Source of the DNA: an uncultured Pelagibacteraceae bacterium
GTDB lineage: Bacteria; Pseudomonadota; Alphaproteobacteria; Pelagibacterales; Pelagibacteraceae
Direction of reading: 5' to 3'
DNA: 63,193 nucleotides
Assembly: GCA_902545035.1 (NCBI GenBank)
Contig: CACCEJ010000006.1
Location: 1-63,193, forward strand
The notes under the pieces were generated by a model that saw nothing but the letters and a program-made list of their open reading frames with translations, did no database searches and had not been told where the DNA came from. Shown here piece by piece: positions 1 to 37,200 of the stretch. Numbering within the stretch: the first letter of the stretch is position 1; each line of letters starts with the position of its first letter. A program made the position numbers and the translations under genes.

Positions 1-153
1 TGGAGAGGGCATGTAGCAATTTGTCTAAATACAAGAGAATTAATTCATGCATATGGTCCAAGAAAAAAAGTAATAATAATGCCAATAATAAAAACCATTA
101 AATTAATTGAAAAAACTGCAAATTTAAAAGTGATTAAAATAATATCGATTTAG
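1..153 (+). CDS. NlpC/P60-family cell wall hydrolase, C-terminal fragment
   Basis: An open frame enters from the left edge and ends at TAG 151-153, giving the last 50 residues of a protein. The fragment contains GHVAICL followed by LIHAYGPRKKV, which matches the end of the NlpC/P60 fold, where the catalytic His lies in a GHVAI-like strand and is followed by a (V/I)HA motif. Alphaproteobacterial members usually end soon after this with a short basic tail, as here. The family cleaves peptidoglycan stem peptides. The catalytic Cys would lie upstream of the window. The end overlaps the convergent tyrA by 4 bases. The family call rests on a short fragment. Confidence 0.7.
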   Translation, partial: WRGHVAICLNTRELIHAYGPRKKVIIMPIIKTIKLIEKTANLKVIKIISI

Positions 154-28372: not shown

Positions 28373-29143
28373 TCAAGCTGTTGCAAGCATTTTCTTTATC
28401 TCTGCAATAGCTTTTGCAGGATTTAGGCCTTTAGGGCAAGCATTTGTACAATTCAAGATAGTATGACATCTATAAAGTTTAAGTTCGTCAGCAACTTTTT
28501 TAAGTCTTTCTTTTCTGTCCTCGTCTCTACTATCAATTATCCATCTGTAAGCTTGAAGTAAAACTGCAGGACCCAAATATTTTTCACCATTCCACCAATA
28601 ACTTGGGCAAGATGTTGAACAGCATGCACACATTATACACTCATATAAACCATCTAATTTTGCTCTATCCTCTTTTGTCTGAATGTTTTCTTTGTCATTT
28701 ATTTTTGTTGTTTTTAGCCAAGGTTCAACTGACTCGTATTGTTTGTAAAGAGTGCTTAGGTCTCCAATTAAATCTTTTAAGACTTTTAAATGTGGTAATG
28801 GATAAATATCGATATCTCCATCTAATTCAGAATGAGATTTGGTGCACGCTAGACCATTCTTTCCATTCATATTCATTGCACATGACCCACATACACCATG
28901 AGCACATGATCTTCTATATGCAATAGATGGATCAATTTCATTTTTGATTTTATTCAAAATATCTAAAACTTTAGAAGAGCAATTATTCATATCAACTTCA
29001 TAAGTATCAATTCTTGGATTTTCATTTTTAGATGGATCCCATCTATAAACATTTACTTTTCTTATATTTTTTGATCCTGTTTTGTCTTTGTAATATTGAC
29101 CTTTTTTTATTTTTGAATTTGACGGTAAATTAAACTGTACCAT
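28373..29143 (-). CDS. sdhB: Succinate dehydrogenase iron-sulfur subunit
   Basis: It passes electrons from SdhA to quinone through three clusters. The cysteine patterns are all present: [2Fe-2S] in [22 protein letters not shown] split over about 88-109, [4Fe-4S] in [12 protein letters not shown] near 169-180, and [3Fe-4S] in [17 protein letters not shown] near 228-244. The His after the first Cys of the third cluster, which helps the quinone site, is conserved. The 256 residues are normal. It starts one base inside the sdhA stop region. Confidence 0.96.
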
Positions 29144-30918
29144 TAATATACTCTTTCCTGAGGAGGAAAATATTGTACATCATTAGTTAGTGTTGATCTA
29201 TGAACTGGTCTATAATTTATTTTTGTTTTAGAGCCATTACACCATGAGAGAGTATGTTGCATATAATTTTCATCATCTCTTTTCGGAAAGTCTTCTCTTG
29301 CATGTGCTCCTCTACTTTCTTTTCTATGATAAGCTGAGTCCATAGTAGTAATCGCTTGTCTAATTAAGTTATCGAATTCTAAAGTTTCGACTAGATCTGT
29401 ATTAAATATTAATGATTTATCTTTAACAGATAAAGATTCCATACCCTCAAAAGGTTTTCTTATTTCATCAACACCTTCCTTTAATGTCTTTTCACTTCTA
29501 AATACTGCACATTTAGACTGCATCGTTTTTTGCATTGATAGTCTGAGTTCAGATGTAGGGTTAGAACCTTGAGAGTTTCTAAGTTTATCAAATCTATCTA
29601 AACATCTATCAGTCTCACTTTTATCGATTTCGTCATGTTTCATTCCTGGTTTTACAAGCTCTGCTGCCCTTTTTGCAGCTGCTCTTCCAAAAACTACAAG
29701 ATCAATTAATGAGTTTGACCCCAATCTATTAGCACCATGAACAGATACACATGCAGCTTCTCCGATAGCCATTAAACCAGGAACAGTTTTCTCCGATCCA
29801 TTAACTGTAAGAACTTCGGCCTTATAGTTTGTTGGTATTCCTCCCATGTTGTAATGCACAGTTGGAACAACTGGTATAGGCTCCTTAGTTACGTCAACGT
29901 TAGCAAATAATTTAGAAGCTTCAGAAATACCTGGTAATCTTTCTTCAATAACTTTAGGGTCTAAGTGATCTATATGAAGATGAACATGATCTTGTTCTTT
30001 TCCTATACCTCTACCTTCATTTATTTCTACCGCAATTGATCTACTCACTACGTCTCTTGATGCTAAATCTTTTGCTTTTGGTGCGTAACGCTCCATAAAT
30101 CTTTCACCTTTTGAATTTACTAAATAACCTCCTTCACCTCTAACACCTTCTGAAATTAAAGTTCCATGGCCGTATATGCCAGTAGGGTGAAATTGTACAA
30201 ATTCCATATCTTGTAAAGGTAAACCAGCTCTTAAAACCATCGCATTACCATCTCCAGTACAAGTATGAGCAGAAGTAGCTGAGTAATATACTTTTCCATA
30301 TCCTCCTGTTGCAATAATTGTAATGTGAGATCTAAATCTGTGTATAGTTCCATCGTTAAGGTTCCAAGCAATTAAACCTTTGCATGCTCCATCTTTCATT
30401 ATTAAATCTAAAGCAAAGTATTCAATAAAAAATTGTGTATTGTGCTTCAGGGCTTGACCATACAAAGTGTGAAGTATTGCATGACCTGTTCTATCAGCAG
30501 CCGCACATGTTCTCTGGACTGTCTCATTCCCATAGTTTTTTGTCATACCTCCAAAAGGTCTTTGATAGATTTTTCCATCCTCTGTTCTACTAAATGGAAC
30601 TCCATACTTTTCTAATTCTAGCACCGCTGCTGGAGCCTCTTTACATAAATATTCTATTGAGTCCTGGTCGCCCAACCAATCTGCACCTTTAACTGTATCA
30701 TACATGTGCCATCTCCAGTCATCCTCACCCATATTTCCTAACGCTGCAGAAATACCTCCTTGTGCAGCAGAAGTATGACTTCTTGTAGGAAATACTTTTG
30801 ACACACAGGCTGTTCTTAGACCAGCTTCACTTAGGCCAACTGCAGCTCTTAAACCTGAGCCACCAGCACCCAAGACAACTACATCATATTCATGATCAAT
30901 TATTTTGTACGAACTCAT
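29143..30918 (-). CDS. sdhA: Succinate dehydrogenase flavoprotein subunit
   Basis: SdhA oxidises succinate at a covalently bound [16 protein letters not shown] near 17-29 binds FAD, and [14 protein letters not shown] near 47-60 holds the flavin-linked His. HPTGIYGHG near 245 and [19 protein letters not shown] near 395 form the active site. The C-terminal REDFPKRDD is typical. The length, 591 residues, is normal. It is in the order sdhC-D-A-B. Confidence 0.97.
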
Positions 30919-30920
30919 AA

Positions 30921-31244
30921 CTATAAATTAAATACTAAGATAATTATTAATAATGGAAATACTATAGCAAAGATATTTAAGGTTTTATTTGCGGCATTTT
31001 TGATATTTTTGTCTTCAATATAATCTTCAAAAACCTCGCTTATGCTCAGTGCAGAGAAAAAATATGCAAAAATCAAAAACATGCTAAATAATAACTTGGA
31101 TGGCTGTGAAGATATAAATGTTAGAACCTCATTATAGCCTTTGTCATAAATAGAAGCCAAACTCATTGCAAACCATATCATTAAAGGTATTAAAATTGCA
31201 GAACTTACTTTTAAAAATAACCATTTCTTAGTTACAGATCCCAT
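30921..31244 (-). CDS. sdhD: Succinate dehydrogenase membrane anchor SdhD, lacking the heme His
   Basis: A 107-residue protein with three predicted membrane helices (about 9-32, 49-70, 88-106). The quinone-site pair Asp74-Tyr75 in VFEDYIED matches the conserved DY of SdhD (E. coli D82/Y83). Eleven residues before the Asp, where E. coli has the heme b ligand H71, there is Phe63. The whole protein contains no histidine. Identity is assured by position between sdhC and sdhA and by the DY motif. The missing ligand suggests a complex II without normal bis-His heme b. Confidence 0.88.
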
Positions 31245-31627
31245 TAAATTATTAACCTTCCGATAGTGTATATTGAAACTGATATAGGAAAAGAGCCAAT
31301 CAAAACAATCAATCCAGATATTTTTGTAGTTTTGGGTTCAAAACCATATCCTAAGTCCATCACCAAATGCCTTATCTCACTTAGAACTTGAAATGTGAAA
31401 GACCAGATTATTCCAATACAAATAAATTTACCGAAAAAAGAAGACAAAAAAGAACTTGTTTGTTCATAATAACCCTCACCTAATAATAATGAAGCTATCC
31501 ATAAACCTATTAAAGTAATAGCAAAAAAATTTATAATACCAGTTATCCGATGCGATATTGAAACCAATGAGGAAATGTGCCAGTTATAAATCTGTATATG
31601 TGGTGATATTGGATTTTTATCTTCCAT
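31244..31627 (-). CDS. sdhC: Succinate dehydrogenase cytochrome b556-type subunit SdhC, heme His replaced
   Basis: A 127-residue three-helix membrane anchor. SISHRITG (Ser23, His26, Arg27) carries the quinone-site Ser and Arg equivalent to E. coli S27 and R31. The second helix aligns without gaps to E. coli SdhC from SSFFGKFI to IRHLVMDLGYG. In this alignment the axial heme ligand H84 becomes Gln80, and the following Gly becomes Glu84, while the later His (H91 in E. coli) is kept as His87. The start lies inside the end of asd (11-base overlap). Confidence 0.9.
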   Translation of the reverse strand: MEDKNPISPHIQIYNWHISSLVSISHRITGIINFFAITLIGLWIASLLLGEGYYEQTSSFLSSFFGKFICIGIIWSFTFQVLSEIRHLVMDLGYGFEPKTTKISGLIVLIGSFPISVSIYTIGRLII

Positions 31628-32627
31628 AAAAATCTTCTTCTATTAAAGCTTCAGCAATTTCAACAGCATTAAGTGCAGCACCTTTTAATAAATTATCTGA
31701 TACTATCCACATATTAATTGAATTAGGTTGTGAAGAGTCATCACGAATTCTTGATATGAATGTTTCAAATTTATCTTCAGCTTCAACTGGAGTAATGTAC
31801 CCACCATCTTTATGTTCATCAACTACTTTACATCCTGGAGATGATGATAAAACAGTTTTGACCTCTTCTAAGTTATGTTTCTTGTTAAATTCTACATTCA
31901 CACTTATTGAGTGAGATACGAGAACAGGAATTCTTACACAAGTAGAGGTAATGTTAATTTTATTATCTAAAATTTTTTTCACTTCATCATGATTTTTTTG
32001 CTCCTCTTTTGTACTTCCGTTTTCAAGAAAGCTATCGATATGTGGTATTGCATTGAAAGCTATCTGTTTAGTAAAATTTTTAGACTGAACATTTTTATTT
32101 TCTAATACTTCTTTTGTTTGAGATATCAGTTCATCCATGCCAGCTTTTCCTGCACCTGATACTGATTGGTAAGTTGATGCAACTATTCTTTTAACATTAT
32201 ATAAATCGTGTAAAGGTTTAAGAGCTACAACTATTGGAATTACAGAACAATTAGCATTTGCTATAATATTTTTATTTTTAAATTTTGGTAATTCTTTTGA
32301 ATTTACTTCAGGTACAATTAAAGGTATTTCAGGATCTTTTCTAAAAAATTTTGAATTATCTATAACAATTGTTTTTTCAGCAGCTATTGGCGCCCATTTT
32401 TCAGCTATTGCTGATCCAGCTGCAAAAAATGCTATTTTTACTTTTGAAAAATCAAACTCCTCTAAGTTTATTACTGTATGTTCTTTGCCTAAAAAATGTA
32501 TTTTTTTTCCAGCACTATTTGGGGAAGCAACTAAGTAAGCTTCTGTTACAGGAAAATTTTTTTTTTCCAAAACTTCAATTAATTTTCGACCTACGTTTCC
32601 AGTTGCACCAACTATTGCTATATTCAT
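31617..32627 (-). CDS. asd: Aspartate-semialdehyde dehydrogenase
   Basis: It reduces aspartyl phosphate to aspartate semialdehyde, supplying lysine (dapF is also in the window), threonine and methionine. The 336-residue protein has GATGNVGRKLIEVL at 7-20, SGxGxxG-like SVSGAGKAGMDEL near 155-167, the catalytic Cys in NANCSVIPIV near 125, and the active His in CVRIPVLVSHSISV near 237. In many alphaproteobacteria asd is near leuB; here dmdABC is inserted between them. Confidence 0.95.
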   Translation of the reverse strand: MNIAIVGATGNVGRKLIEVLEKKNFPVTEAYLVASPNSAGKKIHFLGKEHTVINLEEFDFSKVKIAFFAAGSAIAEKWAPIAAEKTIVIDNSKFFRKDPEIPLIVPEVNSKELPKFKNKNIIANANCSVIPIVVALKPLHDLYNVKRIVASTYQSVSGAGKAGMDELISQTKEVLENKNVQSKNFTKQIAFNAIPHIDSFLENGSTKEEQKNHDEVKKILDNKINITSTCVRIPVLVSHSISVNVEFNKKHNLEEVKTVLSSSPGCKVVDEHKDGGYITPVEAEDKFETFISRIRDDSSQPNSINMWIVSDNLLKGAALNAVEIAEALIEEDFYGR

Positions 32628-32645
32628 GATATTTAGAGTTTTATA

Positions 32646-33755
32646 CTAAATGAAAGGTAAATCACAAACTTTTCCATCAAAATGATTACCATTTATATTG
32701 ATTTTGAAGGATTTCGACTCCTCAAAGTGAGGTTTATTTATCATTGCAATTCCAATAACTTGGCCGAATGTTGGATTATAACATCCGGATCTTAATTCTC
32801 CAATTACTTGATTATTTTCATCAATTAAATCCATTGAACCAGTAACATTTATTTCCTTAGTATCAATTTTCACTCCCATCAATTTTTTTTTAATTCCTTC
32901 TGATTTTATTTTCTTTAATTTTTCTTTCCCTAAAAAATCTACGTCACTGTCAATATTGATATATTTATCAAATCCACATTCATATGGATTGTCTCCATTG
33001 TCCATGTCATTACCATGTGAAAGCAAACCACTCTCAATACGTTCAATTAAATTTGGCCCACCTGGTTTAATATTAAATTCTTTACCAATTTCAAAAAGGT
33101 GATCATATAGTTTTAAACCTGACTCGTTGTGTTCCATATAAATTTCATAGCCACCTTGTTTAGACCATCCAGATTTTGCAATAAGATGTTTATCTCCGCC
33201 AAATTCAAAATAATCAAAGCCAAAAAATTTTAAATTTACAATTTTTTCTCCAAAAACTTTTTCCATTAATTGGAATGATTTTGGTCCTTGCACTGCCATT
33301 ATGTCAACATCAGGTTCAGAAATTTTTACATCAAATTTGTTTCCAATCGCTAATCCTTTGGCAAATAGAATTACATCTGAATCAGCTAAAGAAATCCACC
33401 ATCTATTTTCATTTAGTCTTAAGACTACAGGATCATTTATTAAACCAGCATTATCATCAATTATTGGGCAGTAGTAACATCTTCCATCTTTAGATTTTGA
33501 TAAATCTCTACATGTCATTAATTGAACTAATTTTGCAGAATCTTTACCAGAAATTTCAACCTGTCTTTCAGCAGCAACATCCCAAATTTGAACATGTTCT
33601 TTCAAGTGATGATAAGCATCTTCTACAGAACCAAATGCTGCTGGCAACAACATATGATTATAAATGGTGTAAGCAGTCACACCTTGTTTCTCAATTCTAG
33701 AGGTATACGGTGTTCCCCTTAGTCTTCTTGATTTTGCTATTAAAAAGTTTTTCAT
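32646..33755 (-). CDS. dmdA: Dimethylsulfoniopropionate demethylase DmdA
   Basis: DmdA moves a methyl group from DMSP to tetrahydrofolate, giving methylmercaptopropionate and 5-methyl-THF. The 369-residue GcvT-fold protein matches the remembered Pelagibacter DmdA in length and in blocks such as [63 protein letters not shown] and the C-terminal VCDLPFI. True GcvT proteins lack these blocks. It is followed by asd and preceded by dmdB and dmdC. DMSP supplies both carbon and reduced sulfur to SAR11 cells, which cannot use sulfate. Confidence 0.94.
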
Positions 33756-33806
33756 TTATTTTTCCGCATTACTGTCATCTTATTCCAATTTTGTAAAGAA
33801 ACTATA

Positions 33807-35435
33807 TTAGCTAAGCTCTTTAGCTTGTTTTCTTAATTCAAACTTTTGAATTTTACCCGTTGATGTCTTTGGCAATGGAGCAAATACTACTTTCTTTGGA
33901 AGTTTAAACCCAGCGAGAGTTTCTCTACAAAAAGTAATAATTTCCTCCTCTGTGCTAGATTTCCCTTCTATCAACTCCACAAAGGCACATGGAGTTTCTC
34001 CCCATTTCTCATCAGGCTTTGCCACCACTGCTGCTAGAGATACTGCAGGGTGTTTTGATATTGTATTTTCGATTTCAATAGATGAAATATTTTCTCCACC
34101 AGATATAATAATATCTTTAGACCTATCCTGAATTTTTATGTAACCACTTGGATGAGTTACAGCTAAATCTCCTGAATGAAACCATCCACCTTCCATAGAT
34201 TTTTCTGTTGCCTCTTTATCTTTAAAATAGCCTTTCATTACAACATTGCCTCTAATCATTATTTCACCCATAGTTTTTCCGTCATGAGGTATTGGTTTCA
34301 TAGTTTCTGGGTCCATGACAACAACACCCTCCGTGTTTGGATATCTCACACCTTGTCTAGCCTTGATTTCATTTTGATTGTCTTGATCTAATCCATCCCA
34401 CTCGACATTCCATGCACATTGTAAAATATGACCATAAGTTTCCGTTAAACCATAAACATGCATTACTTCAAATCCAAGTTTTTTCATTTTTTCAAAAATT
34501 ATACTAGGGGGAGGAGCACCTGCAGTTAACACGTAAACTTTTCTTTTTAATTCTTTTTGTTGATCTTTTGGAGCATTAGCCAGCATATTTAAAACAATAG
34601 GAGCACCTCCAAAATGAGTCACTTCATATTTATCTATCAACTCAAATATTTTTTTAACATCAATGTTTCTTAAACATATGACTCTTCCATGTATCATTGA
34701 CATTGTCCAAGGATAGCACCATCCATTACAATGAAACATTGGAACTGTGTATAAAAAGTTTAATTTATTAGGCATGTTCCATGCAACAGCACTTCCGGTT
34801 GCCATTAAATATGATCCTCTATGATGATAAACTACTCCTTTTGGATTCCCTGTTGTTCCTGATGTATATCCTAAAGCAATTGCCTGCCACTCATCTTTGG
34901 GTAATTTCCAAATATAGTCCTCATCACCTGTATTTAGAAAATCTTCATATTCCAGAGAACCTATTGCTTTAGAGTTTTTTAAATTCGCATCTTTATCGTC
35001 AATATCAATTATTTTGATTTCTTGATTCACATCTTCTAAAGCTTTTTTAATTACATCATGAAATTGTCTATCAACTATTAATACCTTTGCCTCACTATGA
35101 TTTAAGATGTAACTTATTGTCTTAGAGTCAAGTCTTGTATTAATTGCATTTATTACTGCACCAACCATTGGAATAGAATAATGGGCCTCAAAAATTTCTG
35201 GAGTGTTAAACGCTAAAACAGATACTGTGTCACCAGTTTTAATTCCAATCTTGTCTAGTGCACTGGCAAACTTCACACATCTTTTATAAACTTCGCTCCA
35301 AGTATATTTTCTACTCTCATAAACCACAGCCTCATAATTTGGGTAAATATCTTTTGCCCTCTCTAAAAACGATAAAGGCGTTAATGGAACATAATTAGCA
35401 TCATTTTTATCCAAATTTGTCTCATAATGGTTCAT
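33807..35435 (-). CDS. dmdB: Methylmercaptopropionate-CoA ligase, DmdB
   Basis: This is an ANL-family acyl-CoA synthetase that activates 3-methylmercaptopropionate with ATP and CoA. The 542 residues include the P-loop-like YTSGTTGNPKGVVYHHRG near 188-205, YGLTETYG near 333, the HSGDLAV motif near 421, and the C-terminal lysine in KTSTGKIQKFELR. The substrate is inferred from the neighbours: it is one base from dmdC and followed by dmdA. Without that context it would only be called a medium-chain acyl-CoA synthetase. Confidence 0.88.
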   Translation of the reverse strand: MNHYETNLDKNDANYVPLTPLSFLERAKDIYPNYEAVVYESRKYTWSEVYKRCVKFASALDKIGIKTGDTVSVLAFNTPEIFEAHYSIPMVGAVINAINTRLDSKTISYILNHSEAKVLIVDRQFHDVIKKALEDVNQEIKIIDIDDKDANLKNSKAIGSLEYEDFLNTGDEDYIWKLPKDEWQAIALGYTSGTTGNPKGVVYHHRGSYLMATGSAVAWNMPNKLNFLYTVPMFHCNGWCYPWTMSMIHGRVICLRNIDVKKIFELIDKYEVTHFGGAPIVLNMLANAPKDQQKELKRKVYVLTAGAPPPSIIFEKMKKLGFEVMHVYGLTETYGHILQCAWNVEWDGLDQDNQNEIKARQGVRYPNTEGVVVMDPETMKPIPHDGKTMGEIMIRGNVVMKGYFKDKEATEKSMEGGWFHSGDLAVTHPSGYIKIQDRSKDIIISGGENISSIEIENTISKHPAVSLAAVVAKPDEKWGETPCAFVELIEGKSSTEEEIITFCRETLAGFKLPKKVVFAPLPKTSTGKIQKFELRKQAKELS

Positions 35436-35436
35436 G

Positions 35437-37200
35437 CTAATTAAATTTATAGTTCATAATATAATTACTTCCAGTTGTTGCACTAATATAACTACTTTCT
35501 ATTCTTGGAAGTACTCTATTAAAGAAAAAGTTTGCAGTTTGGATTTTGTCCTCATAAAAGTGTTTATTATTGTCATATTCTTTAAAAGAAACTTCTAGCA
35601 CTTTCAACCATGCATGTCCTGTAGCCACTAAACCTAAAACTTTTAAATAGTCATTACATGCTCCACTAGCATCCTCTGGAGAATTTTTGATTTTTTCTTT
35701 CATCCAATCAGTAAATTTGGACAAAATATCTAAATGATAATTAAGTTGTTTTATAAATGGCTCTGCTTTTTTGTCTGTGATGTTAATCTCTTCTTTAATT
35801 AGGTTTAAATAATTTTCAATAACATCACCATTTTTGTTAATTAACTTTCTAAAAACTAAGTCAGCCGCCTGAACTGAATTCGTTCCCTCATAGATAGGCG
35901 TAATTCTATTATCTCGATAGAATTGCTCAATACCTTGATCTTTTGTAAATCCATACCCTCCATGAATTTGCATTGCTTCACTGGTTATCTCCATTGCATT
36001 GTCTGTGAAAAGTGATTTAACAACTGGTGTCATCAATGAAACGAGATCTGAAGCCTCTTGTTTTATTTTTTCATCAGAATGATTCAAACTTACTTCAATT
36101 TGCTGAGACAACCAGAAACTCAAGGCTCTTTGTCCTTCTATCATAGATTTCATGCTTAAAAGTGATCTTCTTATATCAACATGGTCAATAATAAAATCTG
36201 CACCATTGTTTGATTTAGAATTAAATGCCTTCCCTTGTTTTCTTTCTTTGGCATAAGTAAGAGAATTTTGGTATGCAATTTCTGAAATTCCAAGTCCCTG
36301 AATGCCAACAATTATTCTTTCTAAATTCATCATTGTAAACATAGAGTTTAGACCTTTATTTTTAGGTCCAATCATGTATCCAACAGCATCATCAAAATTT
36401 AAAACACATGTTGCTGATCCTTTAATTCCCATTTTATTTTCAATAGAGCCTGTTGAAACACCATTTCTTGGTCCAACAGATCCATCTTTATTCAAAACAA
36501 ATTTAGGAACTAAAAATAAACTAATTCCTTTAGTCCCTTTCGGAGAGTCTGTTGATCGAGCTAACACTAAATGAATAATATTTTCTGTTAAATCTTGGTC
36601 ACCTGAGGTAATGAAAATTTTTTGTCCACTTATCTTGTATGTTCCATCTTTTTGATCCACAGCTTTAGTTTTCAACAGGCCTAAATCTGTTCCACATACT
36701 GGTTCTGTAAGACACATTGTACCACTCCATTTTCCCTCAACCATTTTGGGTAAATAAGTATTCTTTATTTCTTCATCTGCATGTCTTAGTAAACAATTAT
36801 ATGCTCCAATTGTTAGTTCACTATAAAGTTTAAATGATAAACTTGCTGATGAAAGCATTTCATCAAAAAATGTACTGACTGTTTTTGGCATTCCCTGACC
36901 ACCGTATTTAGGATCACAAGATAAGGAAATCCATCCATCTTCTATAAATTTTTGGTAAGCCTCTTTGTATCCAGGGGGTGTTCTTACAACTCCATTTTCA
37001 AGGACTGCAGGCGTTTCATCTCCACTCTTTGCGAGAGGTAAAATTAAGTTTTGAGTTATTTTAGCAGCTTCATCCAAAATATCTTTTACTAATTCTGAGT
37101 TAACTTCCTTGTATTTTTCAATCTCATTATATTTTTTATTGTTTCTCAATTTATCAAAGAGAAACATCATATCTTCTACAGGTGCATTATAAGTTGGCAT
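35437..37200 (-). CDS. dmdC: Methylthiopropanoyl-CoA dehydrogenase, DmdC
   Basis: This FAD acyl-CoA dehydrogenase makes methylthioacryloyl-CoA. The 587-residue protein has CLTEPVCGTDLG near 155, the FITSGDQD segment, MGIKGSATCVLNF near 255, IHGGYGFTKDQGIEQFYRD near 400, and the catalytic Glu in ITPIYEGTNSVQA near 427. The extra C-terminal domain of about 150 residues is typical of the DmdC/FadE-like group. A perfect palindrome AAGTATACTT (37201-37210) abuts the ATG and occupies the ribosome-site region, so no Shine-Dalgarno is visible. DmdD, the next enzyme, is not in the window. Confidence 0.88.
   Translation of the reverse strand: MPTYNAPVEDMMFLFDKLRNNKKYNEIEKYKEVNSELVKDILDEAAKITQNLILPLAKSGDETPAVLENGVVRTPPGYKEAYQKFIEDGWISLSCDPKYGGQGMPKTVSTFFDEMLSSASLSFKLYSELTIGAYNCLLRHADEEIKNTYLPKMVEGKWSGTMCLTEPVCGTDLGLLKTKAVDQKDGTYKISGQKIFITSGDQDLTENIIHLVLARSTDSPKGTKGISLFLVPKFVLNKDGSVGPRNGVSTGSIENKMGIKGSATCVLNFDDAVGYMIGPKNKGLNSMFTMMNLERIIVGIQGLGISEIAYQNSLTYAKERKQGKAFNSKSNNGADFIIDHVDIRRSLLSMKSMIEGQRALSFWLSQQIEVSLNHSDEKIKQEASDLVSLMTPVVKSLFTDNAMEITSEAMQIHGGYGFTKDQGIEQFYRDNRITPIYEGTNSVQAADLVFRKLINKNGDVIENYLNLIKEEINITDKKAEPFIKQLNYHLDILSKFTDWMKEKIKNSPEDASGACNDYLKVLGLVATGHAWLKVLEVSFKEYDNNKHFYEDKIQTANFFFNRVLPRIESSYISATTGSNYIMNYKFN

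Follow-up and report, generated by a model that had tools for sequence, protein, structure and literature searches.

A complex II of SAR11 bacteria whose membrane anchors have lost both axial ligands of heme b

The sdh operon and its membrane anchors

The window, a stretch of 63,193 nucleotides from an uncultured Pelagibacteraceae bacterium, carries a succinate dehydrogenase operon, sdhC-sdhD-sdhA-sdhB, on its minus strand between 31627 and 28373 (Table 1). SdhC matched the NCBIfam family TIGR02970 (115.8 bits against a cut-off of 52.3) and SdhD matched TIGR02968 (48.3 against 41.8); with the Pfam family PF01127, SdhC scored above the cut-off and SdhD just below it (25.7 against 25.8 bits). 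At E 0.001 the only NCBIfam families matched above cut-off were succinate dehydrogenase anchor families, and PF01127 was the only Pfam family. Neither anchor matched a fumarate reductase anchor family in NCBIfam or Pfam at this threshold, and assignment to class D (FrdCD) was rejected for that reason. The single-chain models of SdhC and SdhD each contain three long helices, as expected of class C anchors. The sdh genes are adjoined on the same strand (31617..37200) by the DMSP demethylase gene dmdA (PRK12486, 571.3 bits against a cut-off of 410); an aspartate-semialdehyde dehydrogenase gene and dmdB/dmdC-like acyl-CoA ligase and acyl-CoA dehydrogenase genes in this neighbourhood were assigned by eye.

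Table 1. Genes of the sdh operon and residues of the former heme site in the window (residues numbered as in the window's own proteins)
Feature	Position	Strand	Description
sdhC	31244..31627	-	127 aa, membrane anchor of the cytochrome b556 type, heme His replaced
sdhD	30921..31244	-	107 aa, second membrane anchor, zero histidines
sdhA	29143..30918	-	591 aa, flavoprotein subunit, FAD His48 retained
sdhB	28373..29143	-	256 aa, iron-sulfur subunit; cluster Cys, Trp183/184 and His227 retained
SdhC Gln80, codon CAA	31388..31390	-	at E. coli heme ligand His84
SdhC Glu84, codon GAG	31376..31378	-	at E. coli pocket Gly88; Glu in 143/143 genomes of g1, g15 and g16 (labels in text)
SdhC His87	31367..31369	-	at E. 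coli His91; retained with and without the heme ligands
SdhD Lys12, codon AAA	31209..31211	-	at E. coli Arg20; possible partner of SdhC Glu84
SdhD Phe63, codon TTC	31056..31058	-	at E. coli heme ligand His71
SdhD Ser67, codon AGC	31044..31046	-	at E. coli pocket Gly75

Helix 2 of SdhC aligns without gaps to E. coli SdhC and places Gln80 at the heme ligand His84. The model of SdhC fitted E. coli SdhC roughly (TM 0.59-0.62, rmsd 5.8-8.1), so the reading of this subunit rests on the sequence alignment, in which Ser27, His30, Arg31, His91 and Asp95 of E. coli are kept as Ser23, His26, Arg27, His87 and Asp91. SdhC has further histidines at positions 10 and 17, in addition to 26 and 87. For SdhD, a pairwise BLOSUM62 alignment slips by one residue and sets Ser64 at His71, a non-histidine either way, and profile and structural alignments were therefore used. 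The profile alignment to 1nek_D is gap-free up to and through helix 2, with a single gap near the C-terminal end, and puts Phe63 opposite His71. The predicted structure gives the same pairing, residues 3..107 superposing on 11..115 of 2wdq_D at a constant offset of 8 (105 residues, Z 13.5, where values under about 13 mean little for helical bundles). A Foldseek search with the SdhD model returned no match at E 0.001, the best being at 5.3e-3 with probability 1.00. SdhD has neither histidine nor cysteine, and its methionines lie at 1, 22, 27 and 55.

The window thus offers Gln80 and Phe63 where a class C enzyme has one axial heme b ligand on each anchor, and the glycines four residues beyond each ligand, which line the heme pocket, are also both replaced (SdhC Gly88 by Glu84 and SdhD Gly75 by Ser67). 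We take the quinone site to be formed by SdhC Ser27 and Arg31, SdhD Asp82 and Tyr83, and SdhB Trp164 and His207 (E. coli numbers); all of these positions are retained, the SdhD pair as Asp74 and Tyr75, and this is the pattern of a heme-free class C enzyme of the yeast type, with ligand histidine replaced and quinone site kept. As the FAD, iron-sulfur and quinone residues are retained, both catalysis and quinone binding appear unaltered, and the change lies in the heme site. The preliminary description of this locus had read the two ligand substitutions in the same way, with gap-free alignment of SdhC helix 2, and had described SdhD as devoid of histidine, the quinone-site residues as kept (SdhC Ser23/Arg27, SdhD Asp74/Tyr75 and the SdhB cluster His) and SdhA and SdhB as normal; each of these points was borne out, the last by FAD His48, the cluster cysteines and Trp183/Trp184. 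The replacement of the pocket glycines was absent from that description.

Distribution of the heme ligands in SAR11 and beyond

SdhC and SdhD from 282 genomes and E. coli K-12 were aligned by profile HMM, and the ligand and pocket-glycine columns were read (E. coli numbers are used from here on for census positions). A check of the group assignment of all 282 genomes gave no mismatch. Genera are given by label: g1 is the genus of the window, g15 and g16 are its sister genera, and g12, g13, g14 and g17 are other genera of the same family, f1; the sister family in the same order (SAR11), f2, holds g2, g3, g4 and g5. The 97 genomes of g1 comprise 65 of the 71 with a match in a first search, the window included, and 32 from an order-wide search (G039, G077, G040, G020 and G008 were left out, as was G041, in which SdhC is cut). 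We sampled 40 of the 44 genomes listed for g15, 15 of 31 for g2, and every listed genome with a match for g3, g4, g5, g12, g13, g14, g16 and g17. A class set holds 101 of the 192 non-SAR11 alphaproteobacterial genomes with a match (241 searched), a non-random choice of best-scoring, weakest-scoring, small and mid cases, and a phylum set holds 49 loci (30 less one duplicate, plus 20 of lower score), four of its genomes being in the class set too. Rows in which SdhD could not be read were excluded (two from the class set, one from g3, two from the named genomes described below and one from the phylum set). Genomes with no match numbered 34/150 in the first search and 51/397 in the order-wide search, and most of these are incomplete. 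We note that 13 of 151 near-complete genomes of the SAR11 order gave no SdhC match at E 1e-14.

The preliminary description had called for such an alignment across SAR11 and other Alphaproteobacteria, allowing that most SAR11 relatives might keep the histidine pair and that the window might hold a local error. The pair is retained in 0/97 genomes of g1, of which 91 have neither ligand and six have one, and the site is canonical in 96 of the 99 readable rows from other Alphaproteobacteria. Within g1, SdhC84 is Gln in 94 genomes and His in three, SdhC88 is Glu in all 97, and SdhD71 is Phe in 78, Tyr in 15, His in three and Asn in one. Glu88 and Phe71 are present in all 40 genomes of g15 (SdhC84 His in 33, Gln in seven) and in all six of g16 (Gln in four, His in two). 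Across these three genera (143 genomes) both ligands are lost in 102, one is left in 41 and the pair is retained in none, and Glu stands at SdhC88 in 143/143. By eye, the segment linking SdhC helices 1 and 2 is shorter in one g16 genome (L083, G312) than in its relatives.

Single histidines in g1 could be reversions or retained states: His occupies the SdhD site in L175, L178 and L184 and the SdhC site in, for example, L021, where it is nested among Gln, and the two never occur together. SdhC His30 is Thr or Asn in three of the 97 g1 genomes, L021 among them, and its neighbour Arg31 is invariant. Among the g1 genomes listed in the first search, none gave more than two anchor matches at E 0.001, one for SdhC and one for SdhD, and a second, heme-binding complex II in these genomes was rejected as a candidate.

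Both ligands and both glycines are retained in all 13 genomes of g12 (four), g13 (four) and g14 (five). The single g17 genome has both ligands and Ser at SdhD75. In f2 the site is retained in the four readable genomes of g3 (SdhD is cut in the fifth), and the remaining genera combine SdhD His71/Gly75 with SdhC Tyr84/Cys88 (g2, 15 genomes), Tyr84/Ser88 (g4, three) or Asn84/Asp88 (g5, one). The change of SdhC His84 to Tyr with the SdhD histidine retained in g4 and g2 (L087-L104) is the mirror image of the His-Tyr pair of yeast. Outside SAR11, the three non-canonical rows of the class set are L241 (SdhC Tyr84/Ser88, SdhD His71/Glu75), L242 (Tyr84/Gly88, His71/Glu75) and L261 (His84/Gly88, Tyr71/Ser75), and the phylum sample is canonical in 47 of 48 readable loci, the other being L402 (His84/Cys88, Tyr71/Gly75). 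With Tyr for one ligand, and in L241 and L242 also a Glu four residues beyond the SdhD ligand, these four are possible further cases of heme loss. L261 and L284 belong to the same genus and differ in the state of the site. SdhC Ser27/Arg31 and SdhD Asp82/Tyr83 are invariant throughout the census wherever they could be read.

The same positions were read in named genomes, some of which are also in the census. Among the best 80 of at least 577 loci the ligand pair is lost in 37, all titled Pelagibacteraceae or Pelagibacterales, and 40 are canonical, including one Pelagibacterales (L285). L286 (Pelagibacteraceae AG-439-C13) has both ligands and Ser75 and is closest to g17 (71.9% identity). Since L296 is G421 of g15, and L303 and L295 are G049 and G190 of g1, both genera belong to the Pelagibacteraceae. 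Single-contig g1 genomes also lack the pair (G155, G012, G151, G152 and G082). G155 and G012, which we take to be Candidatus Pelagibacter ubique HTCC1062 and HIMB5, have Gln/Glu in SdhC and Phe/Ser in SdhD; G153, G247 and G482 are canonical, the last presumably being HIMB59 and the first two, presumably HIMB114 and IMCC9063, representing genera that retain the site.

Origin of the losses and constraint on the altered site

A tree was built from 112 SdhC plus SdhD rows with the four trait columns removed, 168 of the 280 rows having been dropped to thin near-copies. Every genus is recovered apart from g15, which needs two changes; g1, g15 and g16 are joined (SH-aLRT 99) with g17 as their sister (85), and g2, g4 and g5 of f2 are joined (92). 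Retention and loss of the pair require at least four changes on this tree, some of them outside SAR11. Placing all SAR11 losses in one clade gave p-AU 0.0019, and a single origin was rejected: the loss in f2 (g2, g4) is separate from that in Pelagibacter. Repeated independent loss of the ligand pair is shown; the number of events behind L241 and L242 is unsure because their long branches meet. The living lineages of f1 suggest an order of steps, in which Ser would have appeared first at SdhD75 with both ligands kept (g17), followed by SdhD His to Phe together with SdhC Gly to Glu while the SdhC His remained (most of g15), and then by SdhC His to Gln (g1 and some of g15 and g16).

Ligands and pocket glycines go together. 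Among the 280 rows in which SdhC and SdhD could both be read, one of them from E. coli, every row without the pair lacks at least one pocket glycine (165/165), and both glycines are present in 114 of the 115 rows with the pair. This coupling is clumped by descent, and reduces to four independent pairs (sign test, median p 0.125). The position of SdhD Arg20 is Lys in 140/143 genomes of g1, g15 and g16 and Arg in 14/14 of g12, g13, g14 and g17; outside f1 it is not diagnostic, being Lys in 5/5 of the site-retaining g3 and Arg in 15/15 of g2.

Median dN/dS in g1 is 0.184 for SdhC and 0.253 for SdhD (medians of 0.18-0.25 over g1 and g15), compared with 0.125 and 0.234 in g12-g14 and 0.092 and 0.149 in g2. 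Both genes are under purifying selection in g1 and g15, with SdhC values somewhat higher in g1 than in the site-retaining g12-g14 or in g2. Ferrochelatase and cytochrome b were found in all six genomes tested, one of them that of the window, so these cells probably continue to synthesize heme and to use it in other places.

A class C complex II likely to lack heme b

The loss of the ligands is confirmed as real, clade-wide and repeated. We consider it highly probable that the complex II encoded in the window is a functional class C succinate:ubiquinone oxidoreductase of SAR11 with an anchor that carries no heme b. The earlier suggestion that this complex II may work without heme b is well supported by comparison, as the loss is genus-wide, the pocket glycines are replaced, the quinone site is invariant and SdhD offers neither His nor Cys. 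Electrons would pass from succinate through FAD and the 2Fe-2S, 4Fe-4S and 3Fe-4S clusters to ubiquinone, the heme being off this route and dispensable. The space it once filled would be held by side chains within the four-helix bundle of SdhC and SdhD, with Phe or Tyr in most cases where SdhD had its ligand, Gln or a remaining His where SdhC had its own, and the invariant Glu at the formerly heme-facing SdhC glycine. This residue, Glu84 in the window, is probably bonded to SdhD Lys12 or SdhC Arg27, basic side chains that would once have contacted the propionates of the heme.

An artefact of sequencing or assembly, or a gene decaying into a pseudogene, is refuted by the genus-wide pattern and has a negligible chance of being right, given that all 97 g1 genomes lack the pair, single-contig ones included, the listed rows have no internal stops and dN/dS is well below 1.

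Another possibility is that heme b is still bound, through SdhC His87 or His26, through one remaining ligand, or in a five-coordinate state. The counterparts of these two histidines, His91 and His30 in E. coli, are present in 143/143 and 140/143 genomes of the loss clade, one ligand histidine is left in 41 of these genomes, and E. coli mutants with a single ligand reportedly may keep heme, to go by the title of a 2001 study by Maklashina. On this last point, lineages with one histidine (g15 and the f2 genera) could still bind some heme, and such half-lost lineages may hold it today. Both histidines were nevertheless rejected as replacement ligands, as they are about equally conserved where the pair is retained: His91 is present in 95 of the 101 other Alphaproteobacteria and His30 does not change with the state of the site. 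His87 is for this reason not a new ligand, which counts against ligation by a nearby histidine, the finding that the preliminary description had named as decisive against it. Neither ligand is present in 102/143 genomes, all 143 have Glu for the SdhC pocket glycine, and the SdhD of the window has neither His nor Cys, its Met residues being at 1, 22, 27 and 55. We regard continued heme binding of this kind as very unlikely.

Alternatively, a lipid, a second quinone or another cofactor could occupy the cavity. In the class D QFR of E. coli, a putative cofactor that has yet to be assigned lies where homologs have heme (PMC10238741), and yeast complex II buries a phospholipid deeper (PMC13066397). 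The substitutions seen here (Gly to Glu, Gly to Ser, Thr or Asn, and His to Phe or Tyr) are mostly to bulkier residues, which argues for a filled pocket and makes an occupant of this kind very unlikely.

Why the site was lost is a separate matter from whether it was lost. Relaxed decay of a dispensable cofactor site, rather than adaptation to low iron, is an explanation for which we see an even balance. It fits with the tree, which needs four or more losses and has some of them outside SAR11, with an additional loss in L402, with the drift of ligand identity after the first loss (Gln or His in SdhC; Phe, Tyr, His or Asn in SdhD), and with the report that E. coli activity is independent of heme potential (PMC3290573). 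Set against decay are the invariant replacement Glu and purifying selection on both genes, and the rebuilt site is therefore constrained.

Iron saving would fit retention of the site in the genera that presumably hold HIMB114 and IMCC9063 and its loss in oceanic ones, which amounts to one or two independent contrasts. The main text of PMC2864753, on iron limitation in Pelagibacter, does not contain the word succinate. We put forward tentatively, as a scenario somewhat more doubtful than not, that the dominant SAR11 respire with a bacterial class C complex II that is naturally and entirely free of heme and evolved in steps (the g17 glycine, then the SdhD ligand together with the SdhC Gly-to-Glu change, and the SdhC ligand last), that losses also occurred independently in the second SAR11-order family and in other Alphaproteobacteria, that these enzymes converged with yeast on an aromatic residue, a carboxylate at +4 or both, and that iron-poor water favoured the change. 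If heme is absent, complex II in these very abundant marine bacteria would contain nine rather than ten iron atoms, and for them the label 'cytochrome b556 subunit' would mislead. The part played by heme b in complex II has been called "highly ambiguous" (PMC3290573). Relatives within one order with the site intact, half-lost or fully lost, together with independent repeats, form matched sets in which the contribution of heme b to stability, rate and superoxide production could be tested.

Among the titles and abstract openings listed from open-licence PMC papers, several of the lists covering a fraction of the hits, none reported whether complex II of SAR11 carries heme, nor is this treated in the excerpted text of PMC11561045; heme-free relatives are known in yeast and protists, and the same lists showed no report of one in bacteria. 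The closest canonical enzyme is SdhCDAB of E. coli (1NEK), which shares the gene order, anchor family and quinone-site, iron-sulfur and FAD residues but has one bis-His heme b, where the window has both ligands and both glycines replaced. Its heme lies off the electron path, and a variant without heme remains significantly active and allows growth on succinate, at lower rates, although the isolated enzyme needs heme for stability (PMC3290573). Class D FrdCD of E. coli resembles the proposed SAR11 enzyme in having two anchors and no heme, but is a weaker structural match to SdhD (1kf6_D, Z 9.2, against 13.5 for E. coli SdhD). Membrane domains without heme are also reported in complex II of Tetrahymena and Perkinsus and in yeast Sdh3-Tim18 of TIM22 (PMC13066397, PMC10238741); the former are eukaryotic and divergent, the latter is non-respiratory, and both are likened to SAR11 by description, the fold match of SdhD to the TIM22 chain 6lo8_D (Z 9.8) lying in the range below about 13 that means little for helical bundles. 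The same holds for the match of SdhD to yeast 9qdl_D (Z 10.0, 91 residues).

The nearest parallel is complex II of Saccharomyces cerevisiae (Sdh3/Sdh4), which is heme-free by cryo-EM and for which a subdivision of group C has been asked (PMC13066397). There, Sdh4 Tyr108 takes the place of the histidine and bonds Sdh3 His156, Sdh4 Glu112, four residues on, bonds Sdh3 Arg97, and two more contacts replace those of the propionates (PMC13066397). Yeast lost the Sdh4 histidine only, whereas g1 has mostly lost both; its Glu is on Sdh4, whereas that of SAR11 is at +4 on SdhC in all 143 sequences of g1, g15 and g16 (the models being of single chains); and Sdh4 has an N-terminal extension, unlike SdhD. 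From the yeast and E. coli findings we infer that side-chain packing and a contact between Glu and Lys or Arg replace the structural role of heme in SAR11. Both enzymes share a class C anchor with its quinone site retained, an aromatic residue in place of a ligand histidine and a Glu four residues on.
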